Origin: an uncultured Pelagibacteraceae bacterium
GTDB taxonomy: Bacteria > Pseudomonadota > Alphaproteobacteria > Pelagibacterales > Pelagibacteraceae
Length of the DNA: 64,000 bases
Assembly (NCBI GenBank): GCA_902525935.1
Contig: CABZJA010000005.1
Span: forward strand, 1 to 64,000
Direction of reading: 5' to 3'
Shown: positions 11,778-49,171 of the stretch, one piece after another
Numbering within the stretch: position 1 is the first letter of the stretch
Layout: every line of letters starts with the position of its first letter
Position numbers and translations under genes: made by a program
Notes under the pieces: model-generated
What the model saw: only the letters and a program-made list of their open reading frames with translations
Databases searched by the model: none
Told to the model about the DNA's origin: nothing

Positions 11778-13232
11778 ATGAATAATTCAGTAAAAATTGA
11801 TCCTTATGGCTTTCGTGAATATGACGCAAGATGGATATACGAAAAAGACATTGATGATGGAGGACTCGATTCATTAGGAAAAGGTCTTGGCTCGCAAATA
11901 ATAAAACACACACAAAAAAATAACCCAAGAGTTGTAGTAGGACATGATTACAGATCTTATAGCGAGCATATCAAAAAATATTTGATTAAAGGTCTGATTT
12001 CAACAGGGTGTAATGTTGAAGACATAGGTTTGTCATTATCTCCGATGGTTTATTTTGCCCAATTTAATTTAGAGTCTGATGCAATAGCAATGGTAACAGC
12101 CAGTCATAATGAAAATGGTTGGACAGGTGTAAAAATGGGTATCAAAAAAGGCCTAACTCATGCACCAGAAGAAATGAAAGAGTTAAAAGAAATCACTTTA
12201 AATCAGAGTTTTGTGAAAGGTGAAGGAAATTTGAAAATAATAGATGGTTTTAAAAATATTTATAAAAATGATTTGATTAATAAAAATCGAATAAAGAAAA
12301 AAATTAAAGCAGTGGTTGCATGTGGAAATGGAACTGCAGGCATTTTTGCTCCAGATATATTAAGAGGAATAGGTTGTGAGGTGATTGAGATGGATTGTGA
12401 ATTAGATTGGACATTTCCAAAATACAACCCAAATCCTGAGGATTTAGAGATGCTACATGCTATATCAAAATCAGTTATAGAAAATAATGCTGACATTGGT
12501 TTTGGCTTTGATGGTGATGGGGATAGAGTGGGAGTAATAGACAATAATGGTAACGAAATTTTCTCGGATAAAATTGGGCTTTTGATTGCAAGAAACTTAT
12601 CTAAAGATCATAAAAATAGTAAATTTGTTGTCGATGTTAAATCTACCGGGCTTTATTCAAAGGATGAGGTTTTAAAGGAAAATAATTGTAAAACTATTTA
12701 TTGGAAGACAGGACATTCTCACATCAAAAGAAAAGTGAATTTAGATAAAGCATTAGCTGGATTTGAAAAAAGCGGTCATTTCTTTTTTAATGAACCTCTT
12801 GGATATGGATATGATGATGGAATTAACTCAGCAATACAAGTGTGCAAATTATTAGAGAGAAATGATAAACAAATTAGTAATATTCTTAAAGATTTACCAA
12901 TAACTTTCCAAAGTCCAACAATGGGTCCTTTTTGTAAAGATAGCGAAAAATATGGTGTTGTTGATGATATGATTAAAAGAATAAAAGAATTAAAAGAACA
13001 AAAATTTAAAATAGATGATCAAGTAATAAATGATGTGCTTACAGTTAATGGTGTAAGATTCTCTTTTGAAGATGGATCTTGGGGCTTAATACGAGCATCT
13101 TCAAATAAGCCTTCATTAGTAATTGTTACAGAAAGTCCAACTTCGGATTTGAGAAAAAAGAAAATATTTGACTTTATTGATGGGCTTCTCCAGCAAACCG
13201 GCAAGGTTGGGGATTACGATCAAAAAATTTAA
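11778..13232 (+). CDS. Phosphomannomutase/phosphoglucomutase
   Basis: Alpha-D-phosphohexomutase of 484 residues that interconverts 1- and 6-phosphates of mannose or glucose for nucleotide-sugar and envelope polysaccharide synthesis. The phosphoserine loop TASHNENGWTG places the active serine at 109, the metal loop FDGDGDR gives Asp245, 247 and 249, and a substrate loop GFEKSGHFFF is in domain 3. The start MNNSVKIDPYGFREYD fits the AlgC/ManB group. It is transcribed alone, divergently from nrdA, and its 3' spacer holds the structured-RNA candidate at 13287. Confidence 0.9.
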   Translation: MNNSVKIDPYGFREYDARWIYEKDIDDGGLDSLGKGLGSQIIKHTQKNNPRVVVGHDYRSYSEHIKKYLIKGLISTGCNVEDIGLSLSPMVYFAQFNLESDAIAMVTASHNENGWTGVKMGIKKGLTHAPEEMKELKEITLNQSFVKGEGNLKIIDGFKNIYKNDLINKNRIKKKIKAVVACGNGTAGIFAPDILRGIGCEVIEMDCELDWTFPKYNPNPEDLEMLHAISKSVIENNADIGFGFDGDGDRVGVIDNNGNEIFSDKIGLLIARNLSKDHKNSKFVVDVKSTGLYSKDEVLKENNCKTIYWKTGHSHIKRKVNLDKALAGFEKSGHFFFNEPLGYGYDDGINSAIQVCKLLERNDKQISNILKDLPITFQSPTMGPFCKDSEKYGVVDDMIKRIKELKEQKFKIDDQVINDVLTVNGVRFSFEDGSWGLIRASSNKPSLVIVTESPTSDLRKKKIFDFIDGLLQQTGKVGDYDQKI

Positions 13233-13273
13233 GTTTCAACTAAAAAGAGTTAAAAAGATTTGAGAGAATCGAT

Positions 13274-13279
13274 TATAAT
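13274..13279 (+). promoter_or_regulatory. Candidate -10 box TATAAT before the structured element
   Basis: A perfect TATAAT lies seven bases before G13287, the first base of the structured element, which is the usual distance from -10 to transcription start. No good -35 hexamer is seen about 17 bases upstream, so this is suggestive only; TATAAT also arises by chance in AT-rich DNA. Confidence 0.3.
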
Positions 13280-13286
13280 AATAATT

Positions 13287-13322
13287 GAGGTGGCGGAGGG
13301 AGACTGAAACCACCTCGTCTCC
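13287..13322 (+). ncRNA. Structured RNA candidate with two interleaved stems
   Basis: Stem 1 pairs GAGGTGG (13287-13293) with CCACCTC (13310-13316). Stem 2 pairs GGAGAC (13299-13304) with GTCTCC (13317-13322). All pairs are Watson-Crick, and the order 1-2-1'-2' makes the stems either a pseudoknot or two competing hairpins. The region is far richer in G and C than its surroundings. It lies between the stops of converging genes and touches the stop codon of the TauE-like gene. It may be a bidirectional terminator, a processed 3' UTR or a small RNA. It does not fold as a tRNA. Confidence 0.45.
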
Positions 13323-14155
13323 TAAGTAACCAAAAATCTATACAAAAATAAGGTCCCAATTACATATAAAAATATACCAAAAAGTCTTTGGGTTTTCATT
13401 CTATCAAGGTTTTGAACTGTTTTAGCTCCTATTCTAGCCATAACAGTTGTCACTGGCACAAATATTAGGAATGCAGGTATATTTATAAAACCAATACTTA
13501 AAGGTATGTCTGCTTTTAACATCATCCCAGACATAAAAAAACCAATTGAACCAAATAAAGCTATTACAAAACCAATAGCAGCCGAACTTCCTATTGCTAA
13601 ATTTATAGGATAACCAAAGTATCTTAATATTGGCACATTCATCATAGCACCAGTTATACCCATTGGAGCTGAAATTAATCCTGATAGAAAACCAAATATT
13701 ATTCTAGGAAAAATATTAAATTTTTTTTTTATTTTTTTTGATTTTTCACTTTGTAATAACAGGTATGCACCGAAAAAGAACACGACAGCTGAAAAAAAAA
13801 ATAACAATGTTTTTGTATTCATTAATGCTGCCATCAAGGTTCCTGTAAAAACTCCTATAATGACAAACGTTCCATAATTTTTAATTATATTAAAATCTAC
13901 AGCTTTATATTTTCTGTGCGTTAATACAGATACTGTTGATGTTAAAATTGTAATAGAGAATGCAGTTCCTACAGATAAATGCATTAAATAATCTTTATCA
14001 ACATTAAATGTTTCAAATACAAAAAATAAAAATGGAACAGATATAAGGCCACCACCTATTCCAAAAAACCCTGCAAAAAAACCAACCGGAACTGCTGCAG
14101 CCATCATCAAGAAAATAAAATAAATATTATTAATCTCTAAAAGAGTGTTATTCAA
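13322..14155 (-). CDS. TauE/SafE family sulfite/anion exporter-like membrane protein
   Basis: 277-residue integral membrane protein with about eight helices in two repeats. The glycine-rich motif GFFAGFFGIGGGLISVPFL in the first repeat and LSGLISAPMGITGAMMNVPIL in the second are TauE/SafE (old DUF81) signatures. Relatives export sulfite, sulfoacetate or other organic anions, or take up sulfur compounds. It is the last gene of the malonate-type operon and overlaps dusA by eight bases; a carboxylate substrate is possible from context. Confidence 0.82.
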   Translation of the reverse strand: MNNTLLEINNIYFIFLMMAAAVPVGFFAGFFGIGGGLISVPFLFFVFETFNVDKDYLMHLSVGTAFSITILTSTVSVLTHRKYKAVDFNIIKNYGTFVIIGVFTGTLMAALMNTKTLLFFFSAVVFFFGAYLLLQSEKSKKIKKKFNIFPRIIFGFLSGLISAPMGITGAMMNVPILRYFGYPINLAIGSSAAIGFVIALFGSIGFFMSGMMLKADIPLSIGFINIPAFLIFVPVTTVMARIGAKTVQNLDRMKTQRLFGIFLYVIGTLFLYRFLVT

Positions 14156-40370: not shown

Positions 40371-41411
40371 TTAATGATTTATTGATGATGAAAAATTCCA
40401 AGAACAATCGAAACTTGGTATGTAAACTCTGGAAAGTTTTGTATTTCCAAAAGTTTGGTTAAAGACGTTCAACCAATTATCAACTTGCTTAGGTTTTTTA
40501 TCCTGACTTCCAACTTGAGCAGTAATTACACCTTTGGGTTTTAAAATTCTTTCAAGCGATGACATATTTTTAGCTGCTAAATCAATACAAAATTGGTCAT
40601 CATTAAGATCTAGAAAAATTTGATCATAAGTATTGTCTTTGACAGATTTAATACTTTCGAAAGCATCACCCCAAACACATTTAACTGAATTTTTTTCAGT
40701 AGCTTTCTCACCAATTTTACTAAGATGTTTATCACATACTTCAACAACTTCAGGATCTAATTCATACCAATCTATAAATCCAAAGTTTTGCGAAATACAC
40801 TCTCTCGCTACTCCTCCATCACCCCCACCAATAATTGCAGCTTTTTCTTTGTTTGAATTTAAATTAAGACCTGAATTTACAAAGGTTGAGCTATATAAAT
40901 GTTCATCACTTTCAGCTACTTGTATTTCATTATCAATAAATAAAGCTTTTCCAAATTGTTTTAAATCTAGTATTTCAATATATTGACCTACTTTAGATTT
41001 AAAATTTTCTAAAACTCTATTAACAACATATGATTTTTTTAAACCTGGAGAACTATAATTGTCGTGATAAAGATCAATTGTATCCCTATTAAATTCTTTA
41101 ATAATGATATTTGTATGTTCCATCTCATCTTTTATTATATCTAGAGAAACTTTTGGAGATACCTTTCCACACGTAAAAAAATCAAAGCTTACAATTTCTT
41201 TTTCTGGAAAAGTATGAAAACTGATGTGACTTTCAGCGAGTAAAGCAACCAATGTAAATCCTTGGGGCTCGAATTTATATTTAGAAATTTTTAAAACTGT
41301 TACTTTTGCTGCTTTAGCAATTTTGTAAACTAACTTTTCATAAAATTCAGGAGTATATTCCTTTTTAGTTCCGACTATATCCAGTGCTATATGTTCCCCA
41401 ACTTTTTCCAT
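40371..41411 (-). CDS. Fused S-adenosylmethionine decarboxylase - spermidine synthase
   Basis: One 346-residue polypeptide carries both steps. Residues 1-115 are a bacterial SpeD: the self-cleavage site is Glu60-Ser61 in LAESHISFHTFPE, with His66 and Cys81 (FFTCG) in the positions needed for processing and decarboxylation. Residues about 125-346 are SpeE-like: IGGGDGGVARE (194-204) binds decarboxylated AdoMet, followed by DPEVVEVC and IFLDLND. The usual YHEML segment of SpeE is altered. The product is a polyamine plus methylthioadenosine. Divergent from the aldolase-SDR gene by 89 bases. Confidence 0.93.
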   Translation of the reverse strand: MEKVGEHIALDIVGTKKEYTPEFYEKLVYKIAKAAKVTVLKISKYKFEPQGFTLVALLAESHISFHTFPEKEIVSFDFFTCGKVSPKVSLDIIKDEMEHTNIIIKEFNRDTIDLYHDNYSSPGLKKSYVVNRVLENFKSKVGQYIEILDLKQFGKALFIDNEIQVAESDEHLYSSTFVNSGLNLNSNKEKAAIIGGGDGGVARECISQNFGFIDWYELDPEVVEVCDKHLSKIGEKATEKNSVKCVWGDAFESIKSVKDNTYDQIFLDLNDDQFCIDLAAKNMSSLERILKPKGVITAQVGSQDKKPKQVDNWLNVFNQTFGNTKLSRVYIPSFDCSWNFSSSINH

Positions 41412-47951: not shown

Positions 47952-48479
47952 ATGGATTTAAAAGAACATATTAGGTCAATTCAAGACTATCCTAAAAAGG
48001 GAATTCTATTTAGAGACATCACGACTCTTATTAAAAATGAAAAGGCTTTCAAGGAATGTATAAATCAAATTGTAGAGAGATCTAAAAAATTTAATTTTGA
48101 TAAAATAGCTGCTGTAGAGTCTAGAGGTTTTGTATTTGCTTCTGCTATTTCATATATCTTAGATAAGCCATTTATAATGTTAAGAAAAAAAAATAAATTA
48201 CCTGCAGAAGTACACTCTGTCGATTTTGAGCTAGAGTATGGAACTGCAACCATTGAAGTTCACAAAGATTCATTCAATGAAAACGATAATGTATTAATTA
48301 TTGATGATTTAATTGCTACAGGAGGTACCGCGGAAGCAGCTGCTAAATTAATTGAAATATCAAAAAGCAAAGTTGCAGGATTTATATTTGTAATTAATCT
48401 ATTTGATCTTGGTGGTAATGATAGTCTTTTAAAAAAAGGATATAAAGTTGAAAATCTTTTAGATTTTCCTGGTCATTGA
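47952..48479 (+). CDS. apt: Adenine phosphoribosyltransferase
   Basis: 175 residues. Converts adenine and PRPP to AMP. The phosphoribosyl loop is LIIDDLIATGGTAEAA, with the N-terminal FRDIT segment and ESRGFVFASAISYILDKPFIMLRKKNKLP before it. It uses adenine released by MtnP, encoded divergently 28 bases away. Its stop codon is immediately followed by the CCA end of the opposite-strand tRNA-Met gene. Confidence 0.95.
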   Translation: MDLKEHIRSIQDYPKKGILFRDITTLIKNEKAFKECINQIVERSKKFNFDKIAAVESRGFVFASAISYILDKPFIMLRKKNKLPAEVHSVDFELEYGTATIEVHKDSFNENDNVLIIDDLIATGGTAEAAAKLIEISKSKVAGFIFVINLFDLGGNDSLLKKGYKVENLLDFPGH

Positions 48480-48556
48480 TGGTAGCGGGAAGTGGGATCG
48501 AACCACTGACCTCGGGCTTATGAGTCCCGCGCTCTAACCAACTGAGCTACCCCGCC
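48480..48556 (-). tRNA. tRNA-Met (CAU anticodon)
   Basis: A 77-base cloverleaf is seen on the minus strand: acceptor GGCGGGG with TCCCGCT (G-T pairs at both ends), a D-arm with GTTGGTTA loop, anticodon stem CGGGA/GCCCG region with loop CTCATAA, a T-arm with TTCGATC, discriminator A and an encoded CCA. The sequence resembles alphaproteobacterial elongator tRNA-Met; a tRNA-Ile with modified CAU is the alternative. The CCA end directly abuts the apt stop. Confidence 0.93.
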
Positions 48557-48571
48557 TTAAAGAATTGTTGT

Positions 48572-48599
48572 TGTATACTACTTTTATTTTTTGATGCAA
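48572..48599 (-). promoter_or_regulatory. Candidate promoter of the tRNA-Met gene
   Basis: On the minus strand TTGCAT (48594-48599) and TATACA (48572-48577) are separated by 16 bases and lie about 16-21 bases before the mature tRNA 5' end. Spacing and hexamers fit a sigma-70 promoter. Confidence 0.5.
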
Positions 48600-48607
48600 A
48601 CAAGATT

Positions 48608-48721
48608 TCACTTATTGTTTTTCTTATCTTTTTTAAGTTTTCTTTTTTCTTTTAAAGACAACTTAGCTTTTTTCATTACACTTGCATCTTTAAATGATTT
48701 ACCACTATATCTTTTAGACAT
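48608..48721 (-). CDS. Small basic protein, 37 residues
   Basis: An open frame MSKRYSGKSFKDASVMKKAK and 17 further, mostly Lys residues, ending at TGA 48608. Its ATG directly follows the TAG stop of the secreted-protein gene upstream, so it may be translated by re-initiation. About 40 percent of residues are Lys or Arg, suggesting RNA or ribosome binding. Family not recognised; coding is likely because the frame fills the spacer and shows a third-position AT preference, but this needs comparison. Confidence 0.55.
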   Translation of the reverse strand: MSKRYSGKSFKDASVMKKAKLSLKEKRKLKKDKKNNK

Positions 48722-49171
48722 CTAATTTATTTGTTCAAAAAATTTATCTTTTAGTTGGTAAGTAAATGGATATTCTTTTCCAATTGGTTGAAATTTAGTC
48801 TTAATTACTATTTTATTTTCTTTATCTAATTTAAATTTCCAAGTTAATTTAATATCACCAGAAAAAACTCTCAATTTTCCCAAATTTGTAAAGCGCCAAC
48901 CATCTTCTGAGATAACTTTTCCAGCTTGATATCTCTTGTAATTATTCTCATCAAATATGTAGGTAACTTCACCTTGGTTTCTTTCATCGACTAATGTTAT
49001 TGCATAATTATTTAAAAATTCTGCAGTTTCTGATTTGTTTAGACTTCTTTTTGAAATTGATTTTAAAAAGTCTGTTGTTTTATCTATAGTTTCATCTATT
49101 TTTTCATTAGCCACTGAAAAAGAAGTTAAAATTAGCAAAACAAATACAGCATTAAATAATTTTCTAATCAT
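48722..49171 (-). CDS. Hypothetical secreted protein
   Basis: 149 residues with a signal peptide (about 1-21, cut near SVANEKID). The mature part has a helical start with DETIDKTTDFLKSI and then beta-type strands (GEVTYIF, LRVFSGDIKLTWKF). I do not recognise the family. It is last in the operon dehalogenase-dioxygenase-AEC carrier, six bases after the AEC gene, and is followed directly by the 37-residue basic ORF. Confidence 0.6.
   Translation of the reverse strand: MIRKLFNAVFVLLILTSFSVANEKIDETIDKTTDFLKSISKRSLNKSETAEFLNNYAITLVDERNQGEVTYIFDENNYKRYQAGKVISEDGWRFTNLGKLRVFSGDIKLTWKFKLDKENKIVIKTKFQPIGKEYPFTYQLKDKFFEQIN

Follow-up and report, generated by a model that had tools for sequence, protein, structure and literature searches.

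A compensated hairpin behind a conserved promoter-like block, a probable short RNA gene of SAR11 bacteria

A short intergenic element in a 64,000-nucleotide stretch of DNA from an uncultured Pelagibacteraceae bacterium (the whole stretch analysed, hereafter the window) is probably a gene in its own right that specifies a very short, trans-acting RNA of SAR11 bacteria (Pelagibacteraceae). Three features of it are conserved by comparison, namely a hairpin whose stem is maintained by compensatory changes, a nearly invariant loop, and an upstream promoter-like block that stands at a nearly fixed distance from the stem. An earlier note on this DNA had named a small RNA among its options for the site, and the compensation in the stem, the promoter-like block, the T run that follows the hairpin in many relatives and the varied neighbouring genes all argue for this option.

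The genome to which the window belongs, as its contig 5, is 77% complete and carries a single copy of the element. The element lies within 13232-13322 on the plus strand, downstream from a gene of the phosphomannomutase/phosphoglucomutase family (11778..13232, plus strand; PgmG-like, below the curated cut-off), and faces a convergent gene for a 277-aa membrane protein (13322..14155, minus strand) whose stop codon adjoins the element's end. The NCBIfam match of the membrane protein is weak and to another family; we take the protein to be TauE/SafE-like. Re-reading of the sequence confirmed the two stems described earlier, of seven and six pairs in the order 1-2-1'-2': on the plus strand, stem 1 pairs GAGGTGG (13287-13293) with CCACCTC (13310-13316), and stem 2 pairs GGAGAC (13299-13304) with GTCTCC (13317-13322). 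The sequence TATAAT is likewise found where it had been placed, at 13274-13279, seven bases ahead of 13287. The G+C content of 13287-13322 is 64%, and that of the window 30%. It had further been argued that this is the only spacious convergent spacer, every other convergent junction having at most four spare bases. Among the twelve convergent junctions between the main ORFs that we selected from the ORF list, ten have at most four and the junction 48479/48722 has 242, so that the argument is partly wrong. This second roomy spacer (48479-48722) carries a tRNA on the minus strand (48483-48556).

Folded alone, the hairpin (13283-13316) has a predicted energy of -12.4 kcal/mol and a z-score of -2.95; folding energy by itself is weak evidence for structure here, since z falls to only -1.58 when GTCTCC is included. 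It is the comparison across genomes that settles stem 1 as the structure of a putative RNA. We used two alignments: A2, composed of 88 rows that all belong to the genus g1 (90 loci minus two exact duplicates), and a diverse alignment of 54 hand-picked rows, of which 35 come from the first 90 loci and 19 from a further 20. In A2, 98.7% of the cells of stem 1 are paired (99.0% for the whole structure), two-sided changes occur in six of the seven pairs, and stem 1 far exceeds every slid control. The two-sided cells number 73 in A2, compared with 23.0 for the shuffles, none of which (0 of 500) reached 73, and again 73 in the diverse rows, compared with 29.2 and distributed over eight of nine pairs, all of these counts being inflated by kinship among the sequences. 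A measure of further pair types was not above the shuffles, 226 of 500 for A2 and 498 of 500 for the diverse set. On the plus strand, G-U cells outnumber A-C cells (19:5 in the inner seven pairs, 39:15 in all nine and 12:4 in A2), an imbalance that favours the plus strand as that of the predicted RNA, with the G-U cells concentrated mostly in pairs 31-58 and 37-52 and 13 of the 19 in a single pair.

The hairpin supported by covariation and folding thus spans 13287..13316 (plus strand), with an outer stem of 13287-13293 and 13310-13316 and an apical part of 13294-13309. Stem 1 encloses a loop with AGGGAGACU, identical in all 88 genus rows, as is the loop core AGGGAGACT at 13297..13305 (plus strand), which all 90 genus loci contain with at most two mismatches; across the diverse rows, GGGAGACT of the loop is constant (54/54). 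RNAfold and RNAalifold agree in predicting two inner pairs (13298-13299 with 13304-13305) that close a GAGA tetraloop, below which a predicted 3 x 3 internal loop consists mostly of G.A and A.G oppositions, a G.A being replaced by U.G in 3 of the 54 diverse rows. The two inner pairs never vary, and pairing at these positions is therefore a prediction.

The second stem behaves differently. Over the 88 rows it displays no two-sided change at all; its C-G pair is present in 19 rows and missing from 69, and all six Watson-Crick pairs are found in only 14, which are L001-L014, the clade of the window. By eye, stem 2 is also perfect in L117 and L118. Most other cells of stem 2 are G-U or A-U pairs formed with a T run, which in many relatives occupies the place that GTCTCC, the 3' strand of stem 2, takes at 13317..13322 (plus strand) in the window's clade, L117 and L118. 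The covariation check that the earlier note had proposed thus gave compensatory changes for stem 1 and none for stem 2, and its idea of interleaved stems or of a switch found no support. A switch between exclusive hairpins, or a pseudoknot of interleaved stems, would account for the perfect six pairs of stem 2 in the window and in these relatives, but the minimum-energy prediction in the window is stem 1, and an interleaved pseudoknot would, on geometric grounds, need zero nucleotides to span the 7-bp stem. Since stem 2 lacks any two-sided change and is complete in 14 of 88 rows only, pseudoknot and switch are not supported by the comparison, and we regard both as very improbable.

Four or more consecutive T follow the stem in 55 of the 88 genus rows and in 26 of the 54 diverse rows; such a run is absent in the remaining 33 genus rows, including the window and L002-L014, and in 28 diverse rows. 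The nine bases past the stem hold on average 6.4 T on the plus strand and 3.4 on the other. Where the T run exists, transcription would stop just past it. Members of the window's clade have no T run, and there the predicted RNA must obtain its 3' end in another way. The proposal of a bidirectional terminator was accordingly at most half right, the T-rich side being confined to the plus strand and the window itself having no T run.

The genes around the element were recorded by proxy, as the longest open frame within 350 bases on each side, in 110 loci (the 90 genus loci and 20 more). In 108 of them the gene downstream is convergent; the gene upstream is directed at the element in 77, points away from it in 27 and is of unclear direction in 6. 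In the genus, 74 of 90 loci have the end of a co-directional pmm upstream, at most 120 bases from GAATC in 52 of them and more than 1 kb away, at most 1,270 bases, in 14. Other loci have other neighbouring genes, and ARAGORN found a tRNA-Ser(GGA) just upstream in four of the eight loci scanned (L121, L124, L130 and L132). To judge from these contexts, the element appears to be independent of the adjacent genes. The orientation of the neighbours, together with the hairpin and T run of the 55 genus rows, could also fit a conserved intrinsic terminator of the upstream gene, perhaps of the convergent gene as well, that yields no RNA product of its own. We consider this unlikely: a terminator would not require an invariant loop, whereas nine bases of the loop are constant in 88 rows, and the terminator reading leaves unexplained the conserved upstream block described below (element A, GAATC and a -10-like box). 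Moreover, the upstream gene lies on the other strand in the 27 loci where it points away, and the loop and the promoter persist in the 33 rows that have no T run.

The promoter-like block consists of three parts on the plus strand. Element A, TTCAACTAAAAAGAGTT in the window and TTCAAYTAWWAMGWGTT as the family consensus (13235..13251, delimited by per-column conservation in 110 loci), occupies positions of about -51 to -35 relative to the predicted start; a CcrM-type GANTC site follows as AGAATCG (13265..13271), and then the sigma70-like -10 box TATAAT (13274..13279), for which relatives tend to TAWWWT with only the first T and A invariant, the last T being present in 35 of the 54 diverse rows. 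GAATC-N3-TA, with the site three bases before the -10-like box, occurs in 110 of 110 loci; the script required both GAATC and TA, yet 90 + 20 loci entered and 110 passed. Upstream conservation is restricted to a short block and drops to background ~45 bases above GAATC. In a scan of 12 genomes, the combined pattern of element A and GAATC was found once in ten, was absent in two and never occurred twice, and the reversed control gave 0. The first T of the -10-like box stands 11-15 nt from the stem in all 54 diverse rows, and because of this near-fixed distance the predicted start falls at the foot of the stem (13286..13287, plus strand, as placed from the -10-like box), which is consistent with the 5' end at 13287 proposed earlier. 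A sigma70 RNA polymerase would thus begin transcription at the base of the hairpin, and in loci with the T run the product would be an RNA of ~36-45 nt made of a single hairpin and a U tail.

The sequence conservation of element A and GAATC may also be taken to mean that they are transcribed, in a longer RNA of ~80-90 nt that starts upstream of element A or at the 3' end of the upstream mRNA, as an sRNA processed from it or derived from its 3'UTR; the block of the window begins three bases past the upstream stop codon. We think this improbable, for no conserved pairing is predicted in the part holding element A and GAATC, and the fixed GAATC-N3-TA fits a promoter. Although a co-directional pmm ends upstream in the 74 genus loci mentioned above, it is more than 1 kb off in 14 of them, and other loci have a tRNA or a gene of the opposite strand in the upstream position.

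The fixed GANTC site is notable because GANTC is rare in the window, with 72 sites compared with 168 expected from shuffles. This rarity is in line with CcrM methylation and is no proof of it; CcrM is described in SAR11, and similar pentanucleotide biases occur without CcrM (both from the part of PMC3973325 available to us). GAATC is preceded by A or C in all 110 loci and followed by A or G in 107, which reads YGATTCK on the other strand. By its sequence, the flanked site fits YGAKTCK, the extended motif proposed for GcrA-activated promoters; according to the same partly available text (PMC7987155), the extension was not recovered for GcrA-activated genes in Brevundimonas. At ctrAP1, GcrA protects the region from -35 to -10 when the site is methylated (PMC3667746, available in part). 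With a Pfam model, GcrA was found in 35 of 41 relatives and was not found in the window's own genome (77% complete). The same model was unexpectedly above cut-off in the control genome of Sulfolobus acidocaldarius. In sequence, the element resembles the GcrA/CcrM promoters of Caulobacter crescentus in having a GANTC in the predicted core promoter, flanks that fit YGAKTCK and GcrA in the group, whereas the available portion of PMC2877005 reports no ctrA orthologue for Pelagibacter. Perhaps, then, the putative RNA gene is under GcrA/CcrM control.

In seven single-contig genomes (G012, G082, G203, G217, G226, G235 and G243), the element is located 0.45-0.59 Mb from dnaA. This position, the fixed GANTC, the usual single copy per genome and, in several loci of genus g4, a DnaA-box-like TTATCCACA or a near match to it by element A might be expected of a site that acts as DNA, either a methylation-gated element for protein binding or chromosome organization, or a hairpin of single-stranded DNA. 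A constant distance from dnaA also follows from synteny, however, and a DNA site accounts poorly for the compensatory changes in the stem, the bias of G-U pairs to the plus strand, the enrichment of T on one strand only and the promoter-like spacing; we give such a site little credence.

A 121-base stretch of the element matches 110 of 201 genus genomes, 90 of which were taken as loci; in G126 the match is limited to sequence upstream of the hairpin. With a covariance model built from A2, matches were obtained in 163 of 297 family genomes, from 6 of 14 genera. A search of the order with the A2 model matched 136 of 247 genomes at E<=0.1, four of them with a best E of 0.04-0.1 that are likely chance, and every match belongs to the family f1, an unstated number of the 247 lying outside f1. 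In the class, the model from the diverse rows matched 3 of 289 genomes: that of the window, a second from its genus, and G567, a marginal match (E 0.007) for which the stretch inspected has no loop. A pattern scan of genomes of named species gave at least 120 stretches, all those listed belonging to Pelagibacteraceae, Pelagibacterales or Candidatus Pelagibacter (SAR11).

Not every genome of the family carries the element. At E<=0.001, with strict filters that lose weak matches, no match was obtained in 46 of the 127 near-complete genomes of the family, and by this count the RNA appears to be dispensable. When 20 of the 46 were searched again with laxer filters, the best E was 0.02, the best places, inspected in 13 of the 20, bear no likeness to the element, and a pattern check of the collected loci likewise gave none. 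Thirteen of the 20 have a full or nearly full pmm, downstream of which no element was present in the stretches fetched from 12 (G350 was excluded, its contig ending there). Three genomes have a second match to the model. In G545 (L351, G545:C12), two intact tandem copies lie 480 bases apart and have the same hairpin and differing element A and spacer sequences. The second copies of G258 (L352, G258:C4) and G389 (L353, G389:C2) have lost GAATC, and their loop is changed or partly lost, a joint loss that is as expected if promoter and RNA decay as a unit.

Several other identities were considered and rejected. A riboswitch or other cis-acting leader would require a co-directional gene, and the downstream frame is co-directional in 1 of 110 loci; because the downstream gene is convergent and the neighbours differ, the element is not a leader or riboswitch. 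The reverse strand resembles the end of a tRNA-Ser, as a tRNA 3'-end or attachment-site remnant might, and loop, promoter and stem are nevertheless conserved as a unit; no convincing match came from viruses or phages, with 0 exact pattern matches in viral contigs and a single weak match (E 0.3) in phage records. A TTG-started frame is open across the hairpin of the window, and by eye a TGA interrupts it in L015, which disfavours a small ORF. A mimic of the Shine-Dalgarno sequence fails as well, the GGAGG of the loop not being maintained and AGAGG, GTAGG and GGCGG variants occurring. In Rfam 15, the whole window gives one tRNA only, the sub-threshold matches in 13150-13400 are all far under the gathering scores, and no family was found in seven relatives.

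To return to the reading that we favour, a short trans-acting RNA, the loop with its G.A-rich internal loop and GAGA cap would be the part offered to a partner. The antisense of the loop, AGTCTCCCT, is not enriched, with 32 matches in 12 genomes compared with 45 for the reversed control. Of 30 antisense matches fetched, 11 are the element itself, and one other site recurs (4 genomes), the opposite strand of which reads Glu-Gly-Asp-Ser-Ala-Gly-Gly. This peptide is a GyrB/ParE motif. As it is read on the opposite strand, the mRNA of this recurrent site holds the loop's own sequence and not its complement. No conserved 9-nt antisense target having been found, we lean weakly towards a protein as the partner rather than a single conserved mRNA. 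As for regulation, the GANTC upstream of the -10 box would be methylated by CcrM and read by GcrA, and this reading would make synthesis of the RNA follow replication. Put together, these steps suggest a methylation-gated promoter that drives an RNA hairpin of ~40 nt, the GAGA-capped loop of which binds a protein and reports the state of replication or of the cell cycle, the terminator hairpin being the functional molecule; this fuller scheme is tentative, and we hold it to be possible rather than probable.

Bacterial small regulatory RNAs that end in an intrinsic terminator form a general class. The element is like them in having its own predicted promoter, a hairpin followed by a T run in many relatives and an intergenic, non-leader context, and unlike them in that its terminator-like hairpin seems to be the whole RNA, with the loop as the most conserved part. 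If true, this would be a clear case of a terminator hairpin as nearly the whole product of a gene. SAR11 bacteria rank among the most numerous cells of the ocean. Because their transcriptional regulators are considered to be few (PMC13198564), a conserved regulatory RNA with its own promoter would be a concrete handle on their gene control. If the GANTC works as in Caulobacter, the promoter would also be an easily measured read-out of GcrA/CcrM in a lineage reported to be without CtrA.

The closest prior work is the screening of SAR11 intergenic regions published in 2009 and 2019, both considered here from the portions of text available. Among the structured-RNA candidates of Cand. Pelagibacter ubique (Meyer et al. 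2009, PMC2704228), the rhtB element comes nearest; it is described as a hairpin with bulges that occurs next to rhtB, proC or liv genes and is followed by poly-U in about half of the examples. It is, like our element, a SAR11 hairpin with a conserved loop; rhtB, proC and liv were not recognized near our element among the part of the neighbours that could be named. The motifs of HIMB5 (SAR11), found by GC-rich intergenic screening and including a single sRNA (Stav et al. 2019, PMC6429828), are likewise SAR11-confined, a comparison that rests on the main-text description, the motif list being supplementary. CcnA, a cell-cycle ncRNA of Caulobacter, is 182 nt long, lies in the replication origin, has a CCCC loop and is thought to be under CtrA (available text of PMC8959179). 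Our element is similar in that we propose a small RNA tied to cell-cycle regulators and acting via its loop, and differs in its predicted length of ~40 nt and in lying about half a megabase from dnaA in seven genomes. We did not recognize the element in the available main text of PMC2704228, PMC6429828, PMC5069720, PMC7403470, PMC9111926 or PMC2864753, supplements and most subscription journals being outside this scope, nor in the available parts of PMC7987155, PMC3973325, PMC8959179, PMC3667746 or PMC2877005.

Two minor observations concern sequences elsewhere. The window ORF 40371-41411 (minus strand) encodes a fused polyamine enzyme, with matches to adenosylmethionine decarboxylase (residues 3-109) and spermidine synthase (117-339). 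In the genus g4, the DnaA-box-like TTATCCACA lies directly before element A in L123 and L132, and a near variant with TATCCACA precedes element A in L121, L122, L124, L125 and L135; TTATCAACA is found before element A in L130, L136 and L137.
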